Source of the DNA: Propionibacteriaceae bacterium
GTDB taxonomy: Bacteria; Actinomycetota; Actinomycetes; Propionibacteriales; Propionibacteriaceae
Assembly (NCBI GenBank): GCA_017882685.1
Contig: JADGPA010000081.1
Location: 1-40,763 of the forward strand
DNA: 40,763 nt
Direction: 5' to 3'
Shown here: positions 15,534-24,041 of the stretch, one piece after another
How the letters are laid out: each line of letters starts with the position of its first letter
How positions within the stretch are numbered: the first letter of the stretch is position 1
Program-made: the position numbers and the translations under genes
Notes under the pieces: model-generated
What the model saw: the letters and a program-made list of their open reading frames with translations, nothing else
Databases searched by the model: none
What the model was told of the DNA's origin: nothing

Positions 15534-16658
15534 CTAGGCGCCGCGGCCGATCCCGCGGGGCAGGCGTTCGGGATCCCAGCCCAGCAGGTCGGCAGCTGTC
15601 TCGAAGGCGAACCGGTCGGTCATCCCTGCCACGTAGGTGACCGCGGCCTGCACAACCCCGTCCCCTTCCAGCCCCCGCGTGGCAAGATCGCCTGGCATCG
15701 AGCCGGGATGCTCGCAGTAGTAGGTCACGAGCGCGCGAAGCACCTCGATGACGGCAGCGGCCTGCGCGAGGGAGTCAGGGCGGGTGTAGATGCGCTCGTA
15801 GTTGAAGGCCCGCAACGCTGCAAGGGCCGCGGCCGGCTCGTCGGCCATCCCGACCTGACCGGTGGCGGCGACCGTTCCGACCACGGCCCTGACGAACGCT
15901 CCGAGTTGCTGGCGACGGGTACGTCCGCACGCAGCGACGACCTCGGCCGGCAGGTCGTCGAGGCTGAGGATGCCGGCGCTGGCGGCGTCCTCCAGGTCGT
16001 GGGCGCAGTAGGCGATCCGGTCCGCCCAGCTGACGATCTCGCCCTCGACGGTGGCCGGGACGGGACGGGACCAGGAGTGGTTGCGGATGCCGTCGAGGGT
16101 CTGGCTGCACAGGTTGAGCCCCGTGAGCACGATGTCTGCGCCCCACGGGCCGTGGTTGTAGCCATCGGTGAGGAATGCGTCGAAGGCGTCCTCGCTGGCA
16201 TGTCCGCCGGGACCGTGGCCGCAGTCGTGGCCCAAAGCGATCGCCTCGGCGAGGGTGACGTTCGCCCCCACGCCGCGGGCGATCGAGGTCGCCACCTGTG
16301 CCACTTCGAGGGCGTGGGTGAGCCGCGTCCGCTGGTGGTCGGTGGGGAACACCACCACCTGGGTCTTCCCGGCAAGCCGACGGAAGGCCGTGGAGTGCAC
16401 GATGCGATCACGGTCACGCTCGAAGCAGGTGCGTTCGGGGTCGGGCTCCTCCGCGAGCGCGCGGGCCCCTGCCCCCAGGGCCAGCGCCGCGCCTGCACGG
16501 AGGTGTTCGGCCTCCCACGCCTCCCGCTGCTGCCGCAGGATGGGGACTTCGAGTTCGATACGTCCGCCCGGGTCGCGGTGCGCGCGGACCAGCCGGTCAC
16601 CGGTGTGCCCGGACATCGTCTCGGCCCAGGCGATGGCGCGCGGTTGCAACTCTGGCAT
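15534..16658 (-). CDS. dgt: Deoxyguanosinetriphosphate triphosphohydrolase-like protein
   Basis: About 374 residues, an HD-superfamily dNTP triphosphohydrolase. The core is visible: FERDRDRIVHSTAFRRLAGKTQV, then RLTHALEVAQVA and LGHDCGHGPGGHASE, which give the metal-binding His/Asp set, and later SWADRIAYCAHDLED. It hydrolyses dNTPs to deoxynucleosides and triphosphate, tuning nucleotide pools. The neighbourhood with dnaG is the common actinobacterial arrangement. Start: ATG at 16658 has GGAG close by; GTG at 16679 is an alternative. The first ~70 residues before the core are not a conserved part of the family that I recognise. Confidence 0.88.
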   Translation of the reverse strand: MPELQPRAIAWAETMSGHTGDRLVRAHRDPGGRIELEVPILRQQREAWEAEHLRAGAALALGAGARALAEEPDPERTCFERDRDRIVHSTAFRRLAGKTQVVVFPTDHQRTRLTHALEVAQVATSIARGVGANVTLAEAIALGHDCGHGPGGHASEDAFDAFLTDGYNHGPWGADIVLTGLNLCSQTLDGIRNHSWSRPVPATVEGEIVSWADRIAYCAHDLEDAASAGILSLDDLPAEVVAACGRTRRQQLGAFVRAVVGTVAATGQVGMADEPAAALAALRAFNYERIYTRPDSLAQAAAVIEVLRALVTYYCEHPGSMPGDLATRGLEGDGVVQAAVTYVAGMTDRFAFETAADLLGWDPERLPRGIGRGA

Positions 16659-16728
16659 GGCTCCATCTTGGCAGCACACCCCGCACGGTGTCGGGCGGGC
16701 AATCCGGAGCCGGTGCCCGCCTCGGCGC

Positions 16729-16734
16729 TAACCT
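16729..16734 (+). promoter_or_regulatory. -10 hexamer for a leaderless transcript
   Basis: TAACCT ends exactly six bases before the ATG of the repeat protein gene, with no Shine-Dalgarno between. It is divergent from dgt, with 82 bases between the two start codons. Confidence 0.4.
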
Positions 16735-16740
16735 GTGCGC

Positions 16741-17562
16741 ATGTCCAATGAGCAACCGGTCACGCCGCAGAACCCCGACAACTCCACCGGGAGTGTCCCG
16801 GGTCCGTCGCCGGAGCCGGGCTACGGCCAGCAGCACCCGCAGCAGGGCTACGGACAGCAGCCCCAGCCGTACGGCCAGCAGTATCCCCAGCAGGGCTACG
16901 GCCAGCCGCCGCAGCAGTACGGGCAGCCGCAGTACGGCCAGCAGTACCCGCAGCAGGGCTACGGCCAGCCGCCACAGCCGCCACAGCTGCCACAGCAACC
17001 CCAGCAGTACGGGCAGCCGCAACAGCCCCCGCAGCCCTACGGCCAGCAGCCTCAGCAGGGTTACCCGCCACGGCCGCAGCCGAGCCAGCAGGAGAACCCC
17101 TACCAGATCACCCACTGGGCGGCGCAGTACGGCAACCAGACCGAGGAGCCGGTGCAGTACCAGCAGTCGCCCTACCCAGTGCCCGGCCAGAAGGCAGCGA
17201 AGAGCCCCCTCCTCGGGATGATCGCCTTCGTCGTCGTGCTGCTCTGCCTCGTGCTCGTCTGCTTTGCCGCCCAGCCCATCGGGGAGATTTTCTCCAGCCT
17301 GATCCTGGCAACCGGGTCGACCAGTGTCGACCAGACCACGCTCACCCAGCTGCTCATGGAGCAGGCGCCGATGCAGGTCATGATGATGAACATCGGCTCG
17401 ACGGTCGGCTTCGCAGGCTGGATCACCGGGATCGTCGCCGCCGTCGCCGGTCGGGGCCGGTTGTGGGGCGTGCTCGCGATCGTCGTTGGCACCCTCGCCC
17501 CGATCATCATGTTCGCCGTGATGATTACAGCCATGCTGCCGGCGCTCAGCGCTGTCCGCTGA
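16741..17562 (+). CDS. Q/P/Y/G-rich repeat membrane protein
   Basis: A 273-residue protein in two parts. Residues ~28-115 are a disordered tail of imperfect repeats around QQGYGQPP and QYGQ, with very few charged residues. After ~155 there are three or so membrane helices: GMIAFVVVLLCLVLVCF, IGSTVGFAGWITGIVAAV and WGVLAIVVGTLAPIIMFAV. No enzyme motif. Such Pro/Gln/Tyr-rich tails on small membrane proteins are common in actinobacteria and are thought to be cytosolic, but the role is unknown. It has its own probable leaderless promoter and a strong terminator-like stem after the stop. The track's two extra N-terminal residues are unlikely. Confidence 0.8.
   Translation: MSNEQPVTPQNPDNSTGSVPGPSPEPGYGQQHPQQGYGQQPQPYGQQYPQQGYGQPPQQYGQPQYGQQYPQQGYGQPPQPPQLPQQPQQYGQPQQPPQPYGQQPQQGYPPRPQPSQQENPYQITHWAAQYGNQTEEPVQYQQSPYPVPGQKAAKSPLLGMIAFVVVLLCLVLVCFAAQPIGEIFSSLILATGSTSVDQTTLTQLLMEQAPMQVMMMNIGSTVGFAGWITGIVAAVAGRGRLWGVLAIVVGTLAPIIMFAVMITAMLPALSAVR
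16822..17082 (+). repeat. Coding low-complexity repeats (YGQQYPQQ type)
   Basis: Degenerate 15-27 base units encoding Tyr-Gly-Gln-Gln/Pro blocks. The repeats are in frame and could expand or shrink by recombination. This is a coding repeat, not a CRISPR array: there are no regular unique spacers. Confidence 0.8.
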
Positions 17563-17572
17563 CCTCTCGCTT

Positions 17573-17608
17573 CCAGGAACGGCCGGGCAAACGCCCGGCC
17601 GTTCCTGG
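17573..17608 (+). terminator. 16-bp perfect stem-loop after the repeat protein gene
   Basis: Arms CCAGGAACGGCCGGGC and its exact complement with a 4-nt AAAC loop, starting 10 bases after the stop codon. No U-tract follows. Strength and position support a terminator. Confidence 0.7.
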
Positions 17609-18191
17609 TTCGGGCCACCCTCGCCAAGGGTTGGGGGGCTACCAGGCGGTGGTCGAAACCTGATGGCGGGGTATTGAGGACCGTTCACGACGGGCAGGGC
17701 GATCGGGCCCGACGCGGTAGGACGCGATCCCCGTTGCACCTTTCACCAGCAGATTGCTCACATTTGACCAGACGTGCACCCATGGGCCTGACCAACCTCT
17801 GCACCAAAAGGGTGGCTTCATCTGGACGCGGCTCGCTCCATGGGCAAATCTAGGAACGTAAACAAGCAAGGCGAACAAGCTTCACAGACGCAGTAGCCGT
17901 CCCCCGCAAGGTTGCCCGACCCCCCCGGCGCCCTTCTCGTCATTCCCCAAGGACCTTGGGGCGGCAATACGACCCATGACACACGGATGAGTACCGGACA
18001 TGGGCCCCTCGCGAACCGGGGTCGACACCCTCCCCGACCCCGGATCGCAAAACTCTGTTGAGGTCTTGCTGGCGCCCCGGCTCGCGTTTCGCAGCTGCCG
18101 CCTGACGCACCGCACCCCTCGATCATCTGCCCGGCTCCCAACCCCTCCGGAGTCGGGCAGGTAACACTCCGATAACCAGAGCGCAAGAGTT
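17609..18191. other. Intergenic region with several dyads, no convincing gene
   Basis: About 580 bases with no well-supported gene, lower GC than its neighbours, and no coding-like ORF (the ORFs of the track here run across into nagZ antisense). Structure seen: a dyad CCCCAAGG-A-CCTTGGGG at 17945-17961; a 14-bp stem with one mismatch (CCGGGGTCG / CGACCCCGG core) at 18011-18048 with a 10-nt loop; and a 12-bp stem with one mismatch (CTGCCCGGCTCC / GGAGTCGGGCAG) at 18127-18160. These could be a small RNA, protein sites or old repeats. I recognise no known RNA family. Confidence 0.55.
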
Positions 18192-18223
18192 TTGCTCCCG
18201 TTGAGTCAGTAAGGTTTACTAAC
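18192..18223 (+). promoter_or_regulatory. nagZ-operon promoter with overlapping ROK-type operator
   Basis: A possible promoter TTGCTC-N17-TTTACT (18192-18220). Over the -10 lies a dyad AGTAA-GGT-TTACT that extends to GT.AGTAA...TTACT.AC (18205-18223, seven of eight base pairs). TTAGTAAA/TTTACTAA-like palindromes are typical operators for ROK-family repressors of sugar genes, so repression by a ROK or similar protein is inferred. No repressor gene is in the window. Confidence 0.5.
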
Positions 18224-18227
18224 CAGC

Positions 18228-18320
18228 GTGCAGGCACCGATTCGCCGCAAGTTGCGTCCCGAGGACGCCCGGCCTGACCTGGGTGGCCTGATGACCCCAA
18301 CTCCGCGTTACCGGCGATGA
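18228..18320 (+). CDS. Possible 30-codon leader ORF coupled to nagZ
   Basis: GTG seven bases after the presumed -10 TTTACT, then 30 codons and a TGA that overlaps the nagZ ATG (ATGA). The peptide is rich in Arg and Pro (starts QAPIRRKLRPED, ends PRYRR). There is no Shine-Dalgarno, so it would be translated from a leaderless mRNA. GC at third positions is about 70%, less than I would expect for the genes around, so coding is not proven. It is too short for the ORF track. If real, it would couple nagZ translation to its own. Confidence 0.35.
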   Translation: MQAPIRRKLRPEDARPDLGGLMTPTPRYRR

Positions 18321-19825
18321 CCGAAGCAGAGCTGCGCCGCGCCATCCGCGCGACCCTGATGCCCGGTTTCGACGGGCCGGTGCTGCCCGGCTGGCTGGCG
18401 GCAGAGCTCACCGCCGGCCTTGGCTCGGTGTGCCTGTTCGGTACCAATGTGGTCTCCGCAGAACAACTGCGCCAGCTGACCGCTGCCATCCACTCCGCCG
18501 GACCGGCAGCGCTGGTGGCGATCGACGAGGAGGGCGGCGACGTCACCCGCCTGCACCACCGTGAGGGGTCCCTGCACCCATCTGCTGCGTATCTGGGATC
18601 CCTGGACGACGTGGACATGACCGAGGCCGTCGCGGCCGACATCGGCGCACAACTGGTGGCTGCGGGGGTGGACCTGAACCTCGCCCCGGTCGCGGACGTG
18701 AACTCCAACCCGCTTAACCCGGTGATCGGGGTGCGCAGCTTCGGTGCGGAACCGGAGCTCGCGGCGAGACACGTCGCCGCCTACACCCGGGGACTGCAGG
18801 CCGCAGGGGTCGGCGCCGTCGCGAAGCACTTTCCGGGCCACGGCGACACAGCGACCGACTCCCACCGTGAACTGCCGACCATCACAGTGGACGCGGCCAT
18901 GCTCGCGTCCCGTGAGCTGGTGCCATTCCGGGCGGCGATCGCCGCGGGCTCCCTCGGCGTGATGACCTCGCAAATCCTTGTGCCAGTGATTGACGCCGAG
19001 TGGCCGGCCACCCTCTCTGCGTCCGTCCTGCAGCTGTTGCGCGACGACCTCGGCTTCACCGGCGCGATCGTCAGCGACGCCCTCGACATGGCCGGCGCCA
19101 GCTTGGGTCGCGGTATCCCGGAGGCGGCCGTGCTCGCGCTCGCCGCAGGGGTCGACCTGCTCTGCATCGGCACGGACAACACCGCCGACCAGCTCGCCGA
19201 AATCATCGGCCACGTGTTCGACGCCGTGCGGGGCGGACGGCTCAGCGAGGAGCGCCTCCGGGACGCAGCGGGGCGGGTGGCGGCCCTATCTGCGGCTGTC
19301 GCGGAGCTTCGTGAGGAACACACCAACACCGGAACGCTCCCTGAGGAGCTTCGTGAGGAACGAACGAAGCCTCACGAAGGGCCGCCGCCCCACTCCCCCG
19401 CCGGCTTCTGGCTGCGCGGGCCGATCGCCCCGCTGACCGCCCCGGTGCTGCTCCGCCTGGAGTCGCCGGCCAACATCGCCGCCGGGGAGGACACCGTCTG
19501 GGGCATCGGGGAACACCTGGCCGGCGAGCTGGAACACCACCTCAGGGGAGCGACCTGCGTCACTGCTGCGACCCTCGCCGACGTGGCGGCCGTCCTTGCC
19601 GCGTACCCCGACCGTCCATTGGTGGTGCAGGGACGCGACCTCGCACGGGTCGACTTCCTTGCCCGCGCAGCGACCGTGGTCAAGGACCAACGACCCGACT
19701 CGGTACTGGTGGAACTGGGCTGGCCGCAGCTCACCGGCGTCCCGCCTGTCGATATCGCGACCTACGGGGCCGGCCGAGGTGCTGCGATCTGCCTGATCAC
19801 ATTGCTCTCGGAAGGGGCCAGATGA
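18317..19825 (+). CDS. nagZ: Beta-N-acetylhexosaminidase, glycoside hydrolase family 3 (NagZ)
   Basis: A 502-residue GH3 enzyme. The N-terminal barrel holds DEEGGDVTRL, the NagZ signature KHFPGHGDTATDSH (170-183, with the acid/base His/Asp pair) and the nucleophile in SDALDM (Asp254). Role: cleaves GlcNAc from anhydroMurNAc-peptides or other muropeptides in peptidoglycan recycling. The enzyme lacks a signal peptide, so it is cytosolic or released unusually. A second domain (~370-502) makes it longer than the ~340-residue Gram-negative NagZ. Between domains is an odd charged linker made by a DNA repeat. Its stop overlaps the start of the downstream sugar kinase (ATGA), so the two are co-translated. 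Confidence 0.9.
   Translation: MTEAELRRAIRATLMPGFDGPVLPGWLAAELTAGLGSVCLFGTNVVSAEQLRQLTAAIHSAGPAALVAIDEEGGDVTRLHHREGSLHPSAAYLGSLDDVDMTEAVAADIGAQLVAAGVDLNLAPVADVNSNPLNPVIGVRSFGAEPELAARHVAAYTRGLQAAGVGAVAKHFPGHGDTATDSHRELPTITVDAAMLASRELVPFRAAIAAGSLGVMTSQILVPVIDAEWPATLSASVLQLLRDDLGFTGAIVSDALDMAGASLGRGIPEAAVLALAAGVDLLCIGTDNTADQLAEIIGHVFDAVRGGRLSEERLRDAAGRVAALSAAVAELREEHTNTGTLPEELREERTKPHEGPPPHSPAGFWLRGPIAPLTAPVLLRLESPANIAAGEDTVWGIGEHLAGELEHHLRGATCVTAATLADVAAVLAAYPDRPLVVQGRDLARVDFLARAATVVKDQRPDSVLVELGWPQLTGVPPVDIATYGAGRGAAICLITLLSEGAR
19303..19379 (+). repeat. Direct and inverted repeat inside nagZ
   Basis: The 17-mer starting GGAGCTTCGTGAGG occurs at 19303-19319 and 19345-19361, 42 bases apart and in frame. 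Next to copy two, CTTCGTGAGG (19349-19358) pairs with CCTCACGAAG (19370-19379). It encodes the linker ELREE...ELREERTKPHEG. Confidence 0.75.
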
Positions 19826-20778
19826 CCAAGCCGCCGGCCTCAGGACTGAGCCTCGGCATCGACATCGGCGCCTCCAAGACCCACGGCATCCTGCTGGACG
19901 CGGACGGTTCGCGCCTCGCCGAGACCGTCCGCCCCACCCTGACTGGGCCCGAAGGCGTGGTGAACACAGCTGTCGCCGTCGTCATCGAGTGCCTCGGCCA
20001 GGCCACTGCGCCGGACGCAGCGGTCTCGATCGGCATCGGGATCCCCGGCCAGGTCGACCCGGCGACCGGTCTGGTGCGGACAGCCGTGAACCTCGGCATC
20101 AGCGAACTCGACCTGGGACAGCGCCTGACCGCCGCTCTCGGCGTGCCGGTCACGATCGACAACGACGTGAAGGCAGCGGCGCTCGGAGCGGCGAACCACC
20201 TTGGTGTCGCTGACGGCGACCTGGCCTACCTCAACTTCGGCACCGGCGTCGCCGCGGCGGCAGTCGTGCACGGACGCCTCGTGCGCGGGCATGGCAACCT
20301 GGCCGGCGAGATCGGGCACATCCCGGTCGACCCGCAGGGCGAACGCTGCCAATGCGGCCAGCGTGGCTGCCTTGAGGTGCTCGCCGGCGGCGGACGGATC
20401 GCCGCCCGCCTGGCAGCCCTCGGAACGGGACTCACCCTCGGCACCCTCGTACAGGCCGCCGCGGCCGGTGAGCCAGGGGCGGAAGCCGAGGCCGACCGAC
20501 TGTGCACCGGGATCGCGCTCGCCGTCCAGCTCGTCGTGCTAACCCAGGGATCGGAGCTGGTGGTCCTGGGCGGTGGCGTCATCCACACCGCGCCGGGGCT
20601 GGTGCCGCGCGTGCAGGAGGTCCTGATCGCGCGAGCAGAGGAATCGGAGTTCCTCGCCTCGCTGCGCCTGGCTGAACGGATCACGGTGATTCCGGCCGAC
20701 TACCCGGTGGCTGCGATCGGAGCGGCACTGGTCGGGCTCCGGCGCACGCGGGCAAAGCAGCTGGCGCCGATCGGCTGA
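19822..20778 (+). CDS. ROK-family sugar kinase (glucokinase or GlcNAc kinase)
   Basis: A 318-residue ROK kinase. The ATP-binding loop GIDIGASKTHG is at 12-22, the catalytic Asp in TIDNDVKAAA (Asp115), the sugar-binding EIGH at 163-166, and the zinc motif CQCGQRGCLE at 176-185. No DNA-binding HTH precedes the kinase domain, so it is an enzyme and not a repressor. Its ATG overlaps the nagZ stop; the pairing suggests phosphorylation of the GlcNAc that NagZ releases, although glucokinase cannot be excluded. Its stop abuts the convergent dusB stop (TGATCA), with no spacer at all. Confidence 0.88.
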   Translation: MTKPPASGLSLGIDIGASKTHGILLDADGSRLAETVRPTLTGPEGVVNTAVAVVIECLGQATAPDAAVSIGIGIPGQVDPATGLVRTAVNLGISELDLGQRLTAALGVPVTIDNDVKAAALGAANHLGVADGDLAYLNFGTGVAAAAVVHGRLVRGHGNLAGEIGHIPVDPQGERCQCGQRGCLEVLAGGGRIAARLAALGTGLTLGTLVQAAAAGEPGAEAEADRLCTGIALAVQLVVLTQGSELVVLGGGVIHTAPGLVPRVQEVLIARAEESEFLASLRLAERITVIPADYPVAAIGAALVGLRRTRAKQLAPIG

Positions 20779-21924
20779 TCAGCCGCCAGAGGCGTCGGAT
20801 TCGGCGTCGGCGATGTCGGCGTCGCCGAGTTCTGCGGAGTCCAGCCACCCGTAGGGCATGACCACCTTGTCCCGCGGCGTGCCCTGGCGTCCGCGGGGCG
20901 CACCGAGCTCGCCGGCAGGGAACTCGACGTCGGCGTCCAGCTGCGCGAGGAGAGCGTCCAGCTCGGCAAGCGAGCTCACCATCGCCAGCGCCCGGCGCAG
21001 GTCGCCGCCTACGGGGAAGCCCTTGAAGTACCACGCCATGTGCTTGCGCAGATCGGTGAGACCGTGCTTCTCCCCGTGGATTTCGGCGAGGAGTTCCGCG
21101 TGCCGGTGCACCATCGCCGCCACCTCGCCGAGGGTCGGCAGCGCGCGGCGCTCGTGTCCGGCAAAGGCGTCGGCGAGGTCTCGGAACAGCCAGGGACGGC
21201 CGAGGCAGCCGCGTCCGACCACCACGCCCGCGCAGCCCGTTGCCTCGATCATGGCCAGCGCATCCGCTGCCTCCCAGATGTCGCCGTTGCCCAGCACCGG
21301 GATGTCCACGGCGTCAACGAGGGTCGCGATCGCCTCCCAGGCTGCCACCCCCGAGTAGGCCTGCTGGACGGTGCGTGCGTGCAGTGCGATCGCTGCGCAG
21401 CCGGCGTCCTGGGCGATGCGACCGGCGTCGAGGTAGGTGGGGTGGTCGGCATCGATGCCCAGGCGGGTCTTCATGGTCACCGGCACGCCGTAGCAGTCCG
21501 CCGCGGCGACCGTGGCACGCAGGATTGCCGCCAGCCGGTCACGCTTCCACGGCAGCACTCCCCCGCCGCCACGCCTGGTCACCTTGGGTACAGGGCAGCC
21601 GAAGTTCAGGTCGACGTGGTTCACGCCGAACTCCGCGCAGAGGATCTCGGTGGCCCGCGCCATCACGTCCGGATCCACCCCATAGAGCTGCACCGAACGG
21701 ACGGTCTCGCCCGGGTCGAACCGCAGCATGTCGAAGGTCTTGGGGATACGTTCGACGATCCCGCGACTGGTGATCATCTCGCAGACGTAGAGGCCCGCGC
21801 CCTGCTCGCGGCACAGCTGCCGGTACGCGGCGTTGGTGATGCCGGCCATCGGCGCGAGCACCACCGGCGGCACGACCTCGACGGTGCCGCCGCCGGGTGC
21901 GACCAGGCGAAGTGCCTCGACCAT
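20779..21924 (-). CDS. dusB: tRNA-dihydrouridine synthase (DusB)
   Basis: A 381-residue FMN enzyme that reduces uridine to dihydrouridine in tRNA. The TIM-barrel start is VVLAPMAGITNAAYR; the catalytic Cys110 is in LNFGCPVPKVTRRGGG; FMN-side motifs follow (TMKTRLGID, ALHARTVQQAYSG, VLGNGDIW, GVVVGRGCLGRPW). A C-terminal helical domain binds tRNA, then ~50 extra acidic residues with no known role. Strong ribosome site (GGAGG) just before the ATG. Its message likely begins with a perfect 23-bp stem-loop, described separately. Convergent with the ROK kinase, stop codons touching. Confidence 0.95.
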   Translation of the reverse strand: MVEALRLVAPGGGTVEVVPPVVLAPMAGITNAAYRQLCREQGAGLYVCEMITSRGIVERIPKTFDMLRFDPGETVRSVQLYGVDPDVMARATEILCAEFGVNHVDLNFGCPVPKVTRRGGGGVLPWKRDRLAAILRATVAAADCYGVPVTMKTRLGIDADHPTYLDAGRIAQDAGCAAIALHARTVQQAYSGVAAWEAIATLVDAVDIPVLGNGDIWEAADALAMIEATGCAGVVVGRGCLGRPWLFRDLADAFAGHERRALPTLGEVAAMVHRHAELLAEIHGEKHGLTDLRKHMAWYFKGFPVGGDLRRALAMVSSLAELDALLAQLDADVEFPAGELGAPRGRQGTPRDKVVMPYGWLDSAELGDADIADAESDASGG

Positions 21925-21946
21925 CCGTCCTCCACCTCCTCGCTCT

Positions 21947-22000
21947 CCGACTTGTCAGAATCTCCTTCGGCTCCAGGCGAAGGAGATTCTGACAAGTCGG
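21947..22000. repeat. Perfect 23-bp inverted repeat at the dusB leader
   Basis: Arms 21947-21969 and 21978-22000 are exact complements, with an 8-nt loop (GCTCCAGG). Both arms include AAGGAGATT on one strand or the other. It lies between two divergent genes, about 22 bases before the dusB ATG, so it is not a terminator of either. Outward from it lies a TAGGCT -10 for dusB, which puts the stem at the mRNA 5' end. Confidence 0.9.
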
Positions 22001-22010
22001 CAGGGGGGTC

Positions 22011-22016
22011 AGCCTA
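22011..22016 (-). promoter_or_regulatory. -10 hexamer for dusB
   Basis: TAGGCT on the minus strand, the same hexamer used before several other genes in the window. Transcription would begin near 22004, just ahead of the 23-bp stem. No convincing -35. Confidence 0.4.
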
Positions 22017-22046
22017 CCTACCACCCTGCGCAGCACGCCTTATGCG

Positions 22047-22052
22047 TATGCT
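22047..22052 (+). promoter_or_regulatory. -10 hexamer for leaderless pcm
   Basis: TATGCT, eight bases before the pcm GTG. Only GGTGGG, not a clear Shine-Dalgarno, lies between. Divergent from the dusB promoter. Confidence 0.4.
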
Positions 22053-22060
22053 CTGGTGGG

Positions 22061-22636
22061 GTGAGCACTGAGCACGCCCGAGTCGTGGCAGCGATGGCCG
22101 ACGTGCCGCGGCGCCGGTTCCTGCCCGAGGACATGCAGGACCTCGCCACCCTCGACCAGCCGCTGCCGATCGGGCACGGCGCCACGAACTCCCAGCCGTG
22201 GACGGTGCAGTTCATGCTCGAACTCCTCCGCGTCCCAGATGGCGCGACAGTGCTGGACGTGGGCAGCGGCTCGGGCTGGACGACGGCGCTGCTGGCGCAC
22301 CTCACCGGGCCGAAGGGCACGGTGACCGGCGTCGACGTGGTGCCTGAGCTCGTTGCGATGGGCCAGCGGAATATGGCCGGACTGAACCTGCCCTGGGCCC
22401 GGATCCAGCTGGCAGTGCCGAAGCGGCTCGGACTGCCCGATGATGCGCCGTTCGACCGGATCCTCGTCTCGGCCGAACCCGGCGACATCCCAGAAGAGCT
22501 GGAATCCCAGCTGGCCGTCGGCGGACGCATGGTGCTGCCGGCGTCCGGGGTGATGTGGGTGGTCGACCGCGACCACGAAGGCTGGCACCGCGAGCCTGTG
22601 ACGGGCTACCGCTTCAGCTTCGTCCCACTGGTCTGA
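22061..22636 (+). CDS. pcm: Protein-L-isoaspartate O-methyltransferase-like protein
   Basis: A 191-residue SAM-dependent methyltransferase of the PCMT type, which repairs isoaspartyl residues in aged proteins. The family's early segment is present (VPRRRFLPEDM ... PLPIGHG), but the usual GQTISAP substrate loop is ATNSQPW here. SAM motif I is VLDVGSGSGWTTALLA, followed by GVDVVPELV and FDRILVSAEPG. The GTG start at 22061 is chosen because it opens the conserved region; the longer track ORF runs through the intergenic repeat. The divergent loop could mean a different specificity. Confidence 0.82.
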   Translation: MSTEHARVVAAMADVPRRRFLPEDMQDLATLDQPLPIGHGATNSQPWTVQFMLELLRVPDGATVLDVGSGSGWTTALLAHLTGPKGTVTGVDVVPELVAMGQRNMAGLNLPWARIQLAVPKRLGLPDDAPFDRILVSAEPGDIPEELESQLAVGGRMVLPASGVMWVVDRDHEGWHREPVTGYRFSFVPLV

Positions 22637-22662
22637 ACAGAACCGTCCCCGTTTCTGTTCAG
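22633..22662. terminator. Bidirectional terminator spanning both stop codons
   Basis: CTGAACAGAA / TTCTGTTCAG with a 10-nt loop. The pcm TGA lies in the left arm and the glyS stop in the right arm, so one stem serves both convergent genes. Confidence 0.7.
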
Positions 22663-24041
22663 CAGCCCAGTAGGCGGGCGCCCAGGTAGGCCTGCACCTG
22701 GTCGAGTGCCACGCGCTCCTGGCTCATCGTGTCCCGCTCGCGGATGGTGACCGCGTCGTCCTCGAGGGTGTCGAAGTCGATCGTGATGCAGTACGGGCTG
22801 CCGATCTCGTCCTGGCGGCGGTAGCGGCGTCCGATCGCCTGGGCGTCGTCGAACTCCACGTTCCAGATCTTGCGCAGCTGCGCGGCCAGGTCCCGGGCCT
22901 TCGGCGACAGGTCGGCGTTGCGCGACAGCGGGAGCACGGCAGCCTTCACCGGAGAGAGCCGCGGGTCGAGCTTCAGCACCGTCCGGGTGTCGACCCCGCC
23001 CTTGGCGTTGGGCGCCTCGTCCTCGGTGTAGGCCTCGACGAGGAAGGCCATCAGCGAGCGGGTGAGGCCGGCCGCAGGCTCGATCACGTACGGCAGGTAG
23101 CGCTCGCCGGACGCCTGCTCGAAGTACGACAGATCGGTGCCGGAGTGCGTGGAGTGCGTGCCCAGGTCGAAGTCGGTGCGGTTGGCGATGCCTTCCAGCT
23201 CACCCCAGCCGTCGCCACCGGCGAAGCCGAAGTTGTACTCGATGTCGACCGTGCGCTTGGAGTAGTGCGACAGCTTCTCCTTGGGGTGCTCGTAGTGCCG
23301 CAGGTTGCCCTCGGAGATGCCCAGGTCGGTGTACCAGGAGGTGCGGGTGTCGATCCAGTGCTGGTGCCATTCCTCGTCGGTGCCGGGCTTGACGAAGAAC
23401 TCCATCTCCATCTGCTCGAACTCGCGCGTCCGGAAGATGAAGTTGCCCGGCGTGATCTCGTTGCGGAAGCTCTTGCCCACCTGGCCGATGCCGAAGGGCA
23501 CCTTCATGCGGGCGGTGCCCTCGACGTTCTTGAAGTTGATGAAGATGCCCTGCGCCGTCTCCGGACGCAGGTAGTGCAGGCCCGACTCGTCCTCGATGAC
23601 GCCGAGGTAGGTCTTCAGCATCATGTTGAAGTCGCGCGGCTCGGTGAACCGGCCGAGGGTGCCGCACTCGGGGCAGTTGATCTCCTCGAGGCCGGAGGCC
23701 TTGCGTCCCTTCTTGTGCTCGAAGTTCTCCTCGAGCACGTCGGCGCGGAACCGCTTGTGGCACGAAAGGCACTCGGTGAGCGGGTCGGAGAAGACACCGA
23801 CGTGGCCGGAGGCGACCCACACCTGACGGGGAAGGATGATCGAGGAGTCGAGGCCGACGACGTCGTCGCGTCCCTGCACGACCGAACGCCACCACTGGCG
23901 CTTGATGTTCTCCTTGAGTTCGACGCCGAAGGGTCCGTAGTCCCAGGCGGCCCTGGTGCCGCCGTAGATCTCCCCACAGGGGTACACGAACCCGCGGCGC
24001 TTGGTCAGGCTGATCACATTCTCCAGGCGGCTGGCCACCAT
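22659..24041 (-). CDS. glyS: Glycyl-tRNA synthetase, alpha2 type
   Basis: A 460-residue class II synthetase of the single-chain, homodimeric type found in Gram-positives and eukaryotes. Motif 2 is [25 protein letters not shown], motif 3 lies around [16 protein letters not shown], and a CxxC pair of zinc-like sites is in the insert ([16 protein letters not shown]). The C-terminal anticodon-binding domain (about 355-460) is complete. ATG with AGGGAG upstream. Usual length. It ends in a shared terminator with pcm. Confidence 0.97.

Follow-up and report, generated by a model that had tools for sequence, protein, structure and literature searches.

A short open frame before nagZ in a Propionibacteriaceae genome as a probable scar of ROK repressor and transporter loss

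The nagZ promoter region

The window analysed here is the whole 40,763-nucleotide stretch of contig JADGPA010000081.1 from a Propionibacteriaceae bacterium, and the parts of the nagZ promoter region and operon described below lie on its forward strand. It contains a nagZ-like gene of glycoside hydrolase family 3 (18317–19825; Pfam PF00933, E 2.8e-68), for which the closest NCBIfam model, beta-N-acetylhexosaminidase, scores 185 bits, under the cut-off of 207. A ROK-family sugar kinase gene follows (19822–20778; PF00480, E 2.5e-43), with an ATGA overlap between the two. The dN/dS values against the nearest relative, G027, are 0.21 for nagZ and 0.14 for the kinase, indicating purifying selection on average since the two lineages split, so both genes are probably still used.

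Upstream of nagZ, a −35-like hexamer TTGCTC (18192–18197) and a −10-like hexamer TTTACT (18215–18220) are separated by a 17-nt spacer, just as the earlier note on this DNA had read them. Both are weak matches when taken alone and a sigma-70 scan called neither of them; at the −35 position CTTG is kept in most relatives, and the −10 assignment comes from its sequence, spacing and conservation, the latter being inseparable from that of an overlapping dyad. This dyad was also part of the earlier description, which placed it correctly over the −10 but understated its length: beyond the 13-base core AGTAA-GGT-TTACT (18208–18220), which can be read directly, it extends to 17 bp (18206–18222, TCAGTAAGGTTTACTAA), or 19 bp with an outer G/C pair. 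The pattern AGTAANNNTTACT occurs once in the window vs. zero times in 100 dinucleotide-preserving shuffles, and the dyad is a single copy in the 2.99-Mb genome, even with a wider pattern and one mismatch included. Further upstream lies a direct repeat, GTAAC-n6-ATAAC (18161–18176).

Seven bases past TTTACT, a GTG at 18228 opens a frame of 30 codons (18228–18320), the TGA of which (18318–18320) overlaps the nagZ ATG (18317–18319). Its third-position GC is 70%, the value reported before, with 80% over codons 1–15 and 60% over codons 16–30, so that the low overall figure is due to the second half. An RNA element was considered and rejected, there being no Rfam match in 16500–22700, and attenuation by an intrinsic terminator was rejected likewise, as no terminator-like site was found in 17560–18400. 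A separate block of approximately 330 bp without any obvious gene (17738–18069) shares 83% identity with G027, a level close to that of coding DNA; it has no match in the fetched loci of the other relatives, none in Rfam and no second copy in the genome.

The operator and its repressor in related genomes

Of the 29 other genomes in the genus, 13 contain the dyad, in exactly one copy each, while a reversed control pattern gave no match in the same search. The same layout recurs at four more loci, which belong to two other genera. In the relatives the dyad is always placed directly before a gene for a ROK-family repressor (rokR), and an ATG or GTG begins exactly 5 nt past it at all 18 loci of the three genera, counting the rokR stub of the window described below. 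The two start codons interchange among these loci and no conserved Shine-Dalgarno sequence precedes them. This conservation at 18/18 loci supports what the earlier note had proposed, namely a promoter under repression, with an operator placed over the −10, and a start codon positioned for leaderless translation. The window dyad differs from TTAGTAAGGTTTACTAA by one base, and its TCAGTAA variant is shared with the rokR operators of G020 and G012.

RokR of G027 (368 aa) has a ROK domain (E 1.1e-42) and an N-terminal winged helix-turn-helix (MarR_2, E 1.3e-6). In the nearest relatives the N-terminus reads M-x-x-P-I-R-R-K-L-R-P-E-D-A-R-R-S-N-L-A-L-V, followed by the helix-turn-helix. A repressor with both domains, found here in the relatives only, and a palindromic operator with a 3-bp centre over the repressor's own promoter, with a sugar operon downstream, are what is seen in autoregulated ROK repressors of the NagC/Mlc/XylR type. 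The site of CsnR from Streptomyces lividans, GGTAGGAAACTTTCCTATC (PMC4856308), has the same TAG-n-AA...TT-n-CTA layout, but the CsnR palindrome differs in overlapping the transcription start of a chitosanase gene (PMC3048496). The window also differs from these systems in that it has no repressor, only the promoter, the operator and 16 codons. The ancestral rokR promoter was probably that of an autoregulated repressor, with a presumably leaderless message. An RTG at the expected transcription start without a Shine-Dalgarno sequence is also typical of leaderless actinobacterial mRNAs, and mycobacteria need no more than an ATG or GTG at the 5' end for leaderless initiation (PMC4633059); the window departs from them in that its frame is a broken gene and its transcription start a predicted one.

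The upstream direct repeat recurs 45–46 nt before the dyad in 13 of the 14 genus promoters (degenerate in the 14th) and is also visible upstream of it in the two other genera. Within the genus its position is conserved while the surrounding sequence is not, and it is possibly an activator site upstream of the −35. In form it recalls MtrA boxes, to which GlnR boxes are similar. The sequence likeness consists of two GTAAC-like direct repeats with an 11-bp period, to be compared with the MtrA consensus GTAACCNNNNNGTAACC (PMC12323332).

We found no published description of a ROK regulon with the operator TTAGTAARGYTTACTAA, an RTG 5 nt downstream and an MtrA-like box upstream. The regulon defined in this way is conserved in at least three genera and merits a name. 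Six genomes of the genus (G004, G005, G009, G010, G023, and G029) encode RokR relatives 45–63% identical to that of G027 without the operator pattern; their operators probably differ, which makes these proteins useful for mapping the recognition residues. At L161 and L162, which belong to another genus, a dgt-like gene (start MAELPPRAIAWAQTMAGHPGD) stands opposite the rokR promoter. A dgt-like gene is also a neighbour in the window, one gene away, so the linkage between rokR and dgt is older than the genus.

Probable loss of rokR and the transporter, and the origin of the short frame

The nearest relative by nagZ (82%), G027, is the sister of the window at 100/99 support, and the pair is nested in a clade with G001 (97/99). 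Its operon runs rokR, extracellular sugar-binding protein, two permeases, nagZ, and ROK kinase, flanked by a membrane-protein gene and dus. As G027 and the next outgroup, G001, both keep nagZ along with rokR and transporter genes, the loss is a derived state of the window. BLAST of the window against the G027 locus (L126) gave colinear matches that stop at 18273/4268. The rokR remnant at this point, GTG and codons 1–16 (MQAPIRRKLRPEDARP..., 18228–18273), is identical to G027 rokR in 44 of 46 bases; it ends before the helix-turn-helix, and the peptide then diverges from RokR. After seven bases of unsure origin (18274–18280), where approximately 1,050 bp of rokR are missing, the alignment resumes at 18281/5319 for 36 bases. 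This piece (18281–18316) comprises the 3' end of rokR with its TGA and a remnant of the spacer between rokR and the binding-protein gene, with 31/36 identities at L126 5319–5354 vs. at most 21/36 elsewhere in the 13-kb locus. At the second junction (18316–18317) L126 5354 on the left is joined to the nagZ start on the right (18317/8629), with the BLAST match running from 18329/8636 inside nagZ; the roughly 3,270 bp missing here held the binding protein and the two permeases in front of nagZ. Altogether about 4.3 kb are missing with respect to G027, comprising the transporter and all of rokR from codon 17 onwards.

The 30-codon frame is therefore a chimera of a rokR stub, a junction, and an out-of-frame tail and spacer, and we consider it a deletion scar, an evolutionary relic of the loss of rokR and the transporter, with a probability of about 85% on this comparison of sequences. 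The earlier note had seen in it a leaderless leader peptide, rich in Arg and Pro and perhaps able to stall ribosomes, that governs nagZ translation. A GTG of the leaderless type, 30 open codons, the ATGA overlap and a nagZ without Shine-Dalgarno sequence would all suit such a peptide, and mycobacterial transcripts commonly begin with a short leaderless ORF (PMC4633059). However, anything longer than 7 nt in this frame can be traced to rokR, its tail or the spacer, and the relatives have the Arg-rich part as the conserved N-terminal end of their 368-aa repressor. Directly upstream of nagZ the relatives have other neighbours, mostly a permease gene, and no conserved short frame or peptide was found in them, the frame being rokR there. 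The note itself had asked for a frame conserved in relatives, where the same start codon opens a protein of approximately 365–400 aa instead, which refutes the leader-peptide reading by its own measure and leaves a purpose-built leader very improbable. In leaderless uORFs and attenuators, as in the window, a short frame without a leader runs up to the beginning of the gene that follows, but the frame of the window is chimeric, unconserved and accompanied by no terminator-like site within 17560–18400. The overlap with nagZ is explicable without selection: a stop lands in the nagZ start in one of three frames and 14 codons stay open in about 70% of cases (our own estimate), so that about one deletion in four would leave an open frame with ATGA overlap, a matter of roughly one-in-four luck. 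The possibility that the scar ORF acts as a mini-repressor was rejected; its RokR-derived part ends ahead of the helix-turn-helix (from about residue 20 of RokR), so that the peptide should not bind DNA.

The window comes from an assembly of 215 contigs that is 88.9% complete, which leaves residual doubt about the loss. The evidence for the deletions comes from a single contig, as we found these junctions in no other assembly. A contig that misjoins an intact operon, in a genome that keeps rokR and the transporter, would explain the same data. Against such an artefact, the two junctions lie 43 bases apart and neither has long shared words, on which assemblers join; there is a further indel in the upstream flank of the same stretch; and orthologs of RokR, the binding protein and the first permease were found on no other contig of the assembly. 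We regard an artefact as quite improbable. The best matches to these three proteins in the window's own genome are 33, 31, and 33% identical, vs. 74–100% (RokR), 82–100% (binding protein), and 84–100% (permease) for the orthologs in the relatives searched; a relocation of rokR and the transporter within the genome was rejected, only distant paralogs having been found. A rokR ortholog at E ≤ 1e-60 is present in each of the 13 other genomes of the genus that bear the operator, but not in the genome of the window, in which the search for an intact repressor gene returned only codons 1–16. A scan for distant homologs in the named genomes gave relatives at 37–55% only.

The DNA before the promoter has changed as well. 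Between window 18077–18105 and L126 3816–4102 approximately 258 bp are absent in the window, and a small gene that encodes a zinc-ribbon-like CxxC protein (MSTVFERILIRLERWMDRLVIPDDRYACGGCDDRFVSRSMG...), located just upstream of the rokR promoter in G027, is reduced to its last codons before the stop (RFAAAA*). The stretch upstream of the rokR promoter thus seems eroded too.

A presumably captured promoter and the translation of nagZ

The sequence of events that we propose starts from an operon headed by rokR, with an MtrA-like box upstream of the promoter and, we infer, a leaderless message whose start codon lay approximately 7 nt past the −10. As the ancestral operator covered the −10, RokR most likely kept the operon, its own gene included, silent in the absence of a sugar ligand that released it. 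Deletions would then have removed rokR from codon 17 on, along with the genes of the ABC transporter, so that nagZ and the kinase were joined to what was left: the promoter with its operator and activator-like site, followed by 16 codons of rokR and a few dozen bases from its tail and the spacer. Given that the promoter and the MtrA-box-like repeat survive, these two genes appear to have captured the promoter of the repressor, and would now be transcribed from it together with an orphan operator. An operator that has lost its repressor would make them constitutive unless an unrelated factor acts, and derepression of the nagZ–kinase operon is to our mind reasonably likely.

One alternative is that another ROK repressor of the genome took over the operator, keeping nagZ regulated. 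The genome has several ROK paralogs, and the dyad is one change from the genus consensus, in the variant that G020 and G012 have before their rokR. Nevertheless, the paralogs that we read have the recognition helices NRSTIASLV, PSSTVSHAV, and SKPTAGQMI vs. TKVTVSDLV in RokR, the genome has the single site, with none at a paralog, and the dyad may have been conserved only because the deletion is recent or because it overlaps the −10. We therefore find continued use of the operator unlikely, and favour its having been orphaned by the deletions. A literature search on orphaned operators found nothing.

The start of nagZ has changed as well. In the relatives the gene starts just past the permease stop with an AAGG-type site, and the anti-Shine-Dalgarno pairing is −1.7 kcal/mol in the window vs. 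−4.0 to −10.6 in seven relatives; nagZ in the window has lost its Shine-Dalgarno sequence. For this reason, and given the ATGA overlap, it is plausible that ribosomes initiate without a leader at the GTG that opens the scar ORF, terminate at its stop and reinitiate at nagZ, a route that we put forward tentatively. It is likewise conceivable, if somewhat doubtful, that the deletion created a new regulation in one step, capturing a leaderless promoter and turning the stub and spacer into an obligatory translation-start module for nagZ. The locus lends itself, as a natural experiment, to asking if a leaderless mini-ORF can stand in for a Shine-Dalgarno sequence through reinitiation. More generally, an apparently regulatory small ORF can arise as the scar of a deletion, which calls for caution when small ORFs or leader peptides are annotated from a single genome.

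Finally, G014 has two nagZ paralogs, at C1:70747–72204 and C1:792649–794091 (64 and 59% identical to that of the window, respectively), and only the second of them lies close to the operator and rokR.
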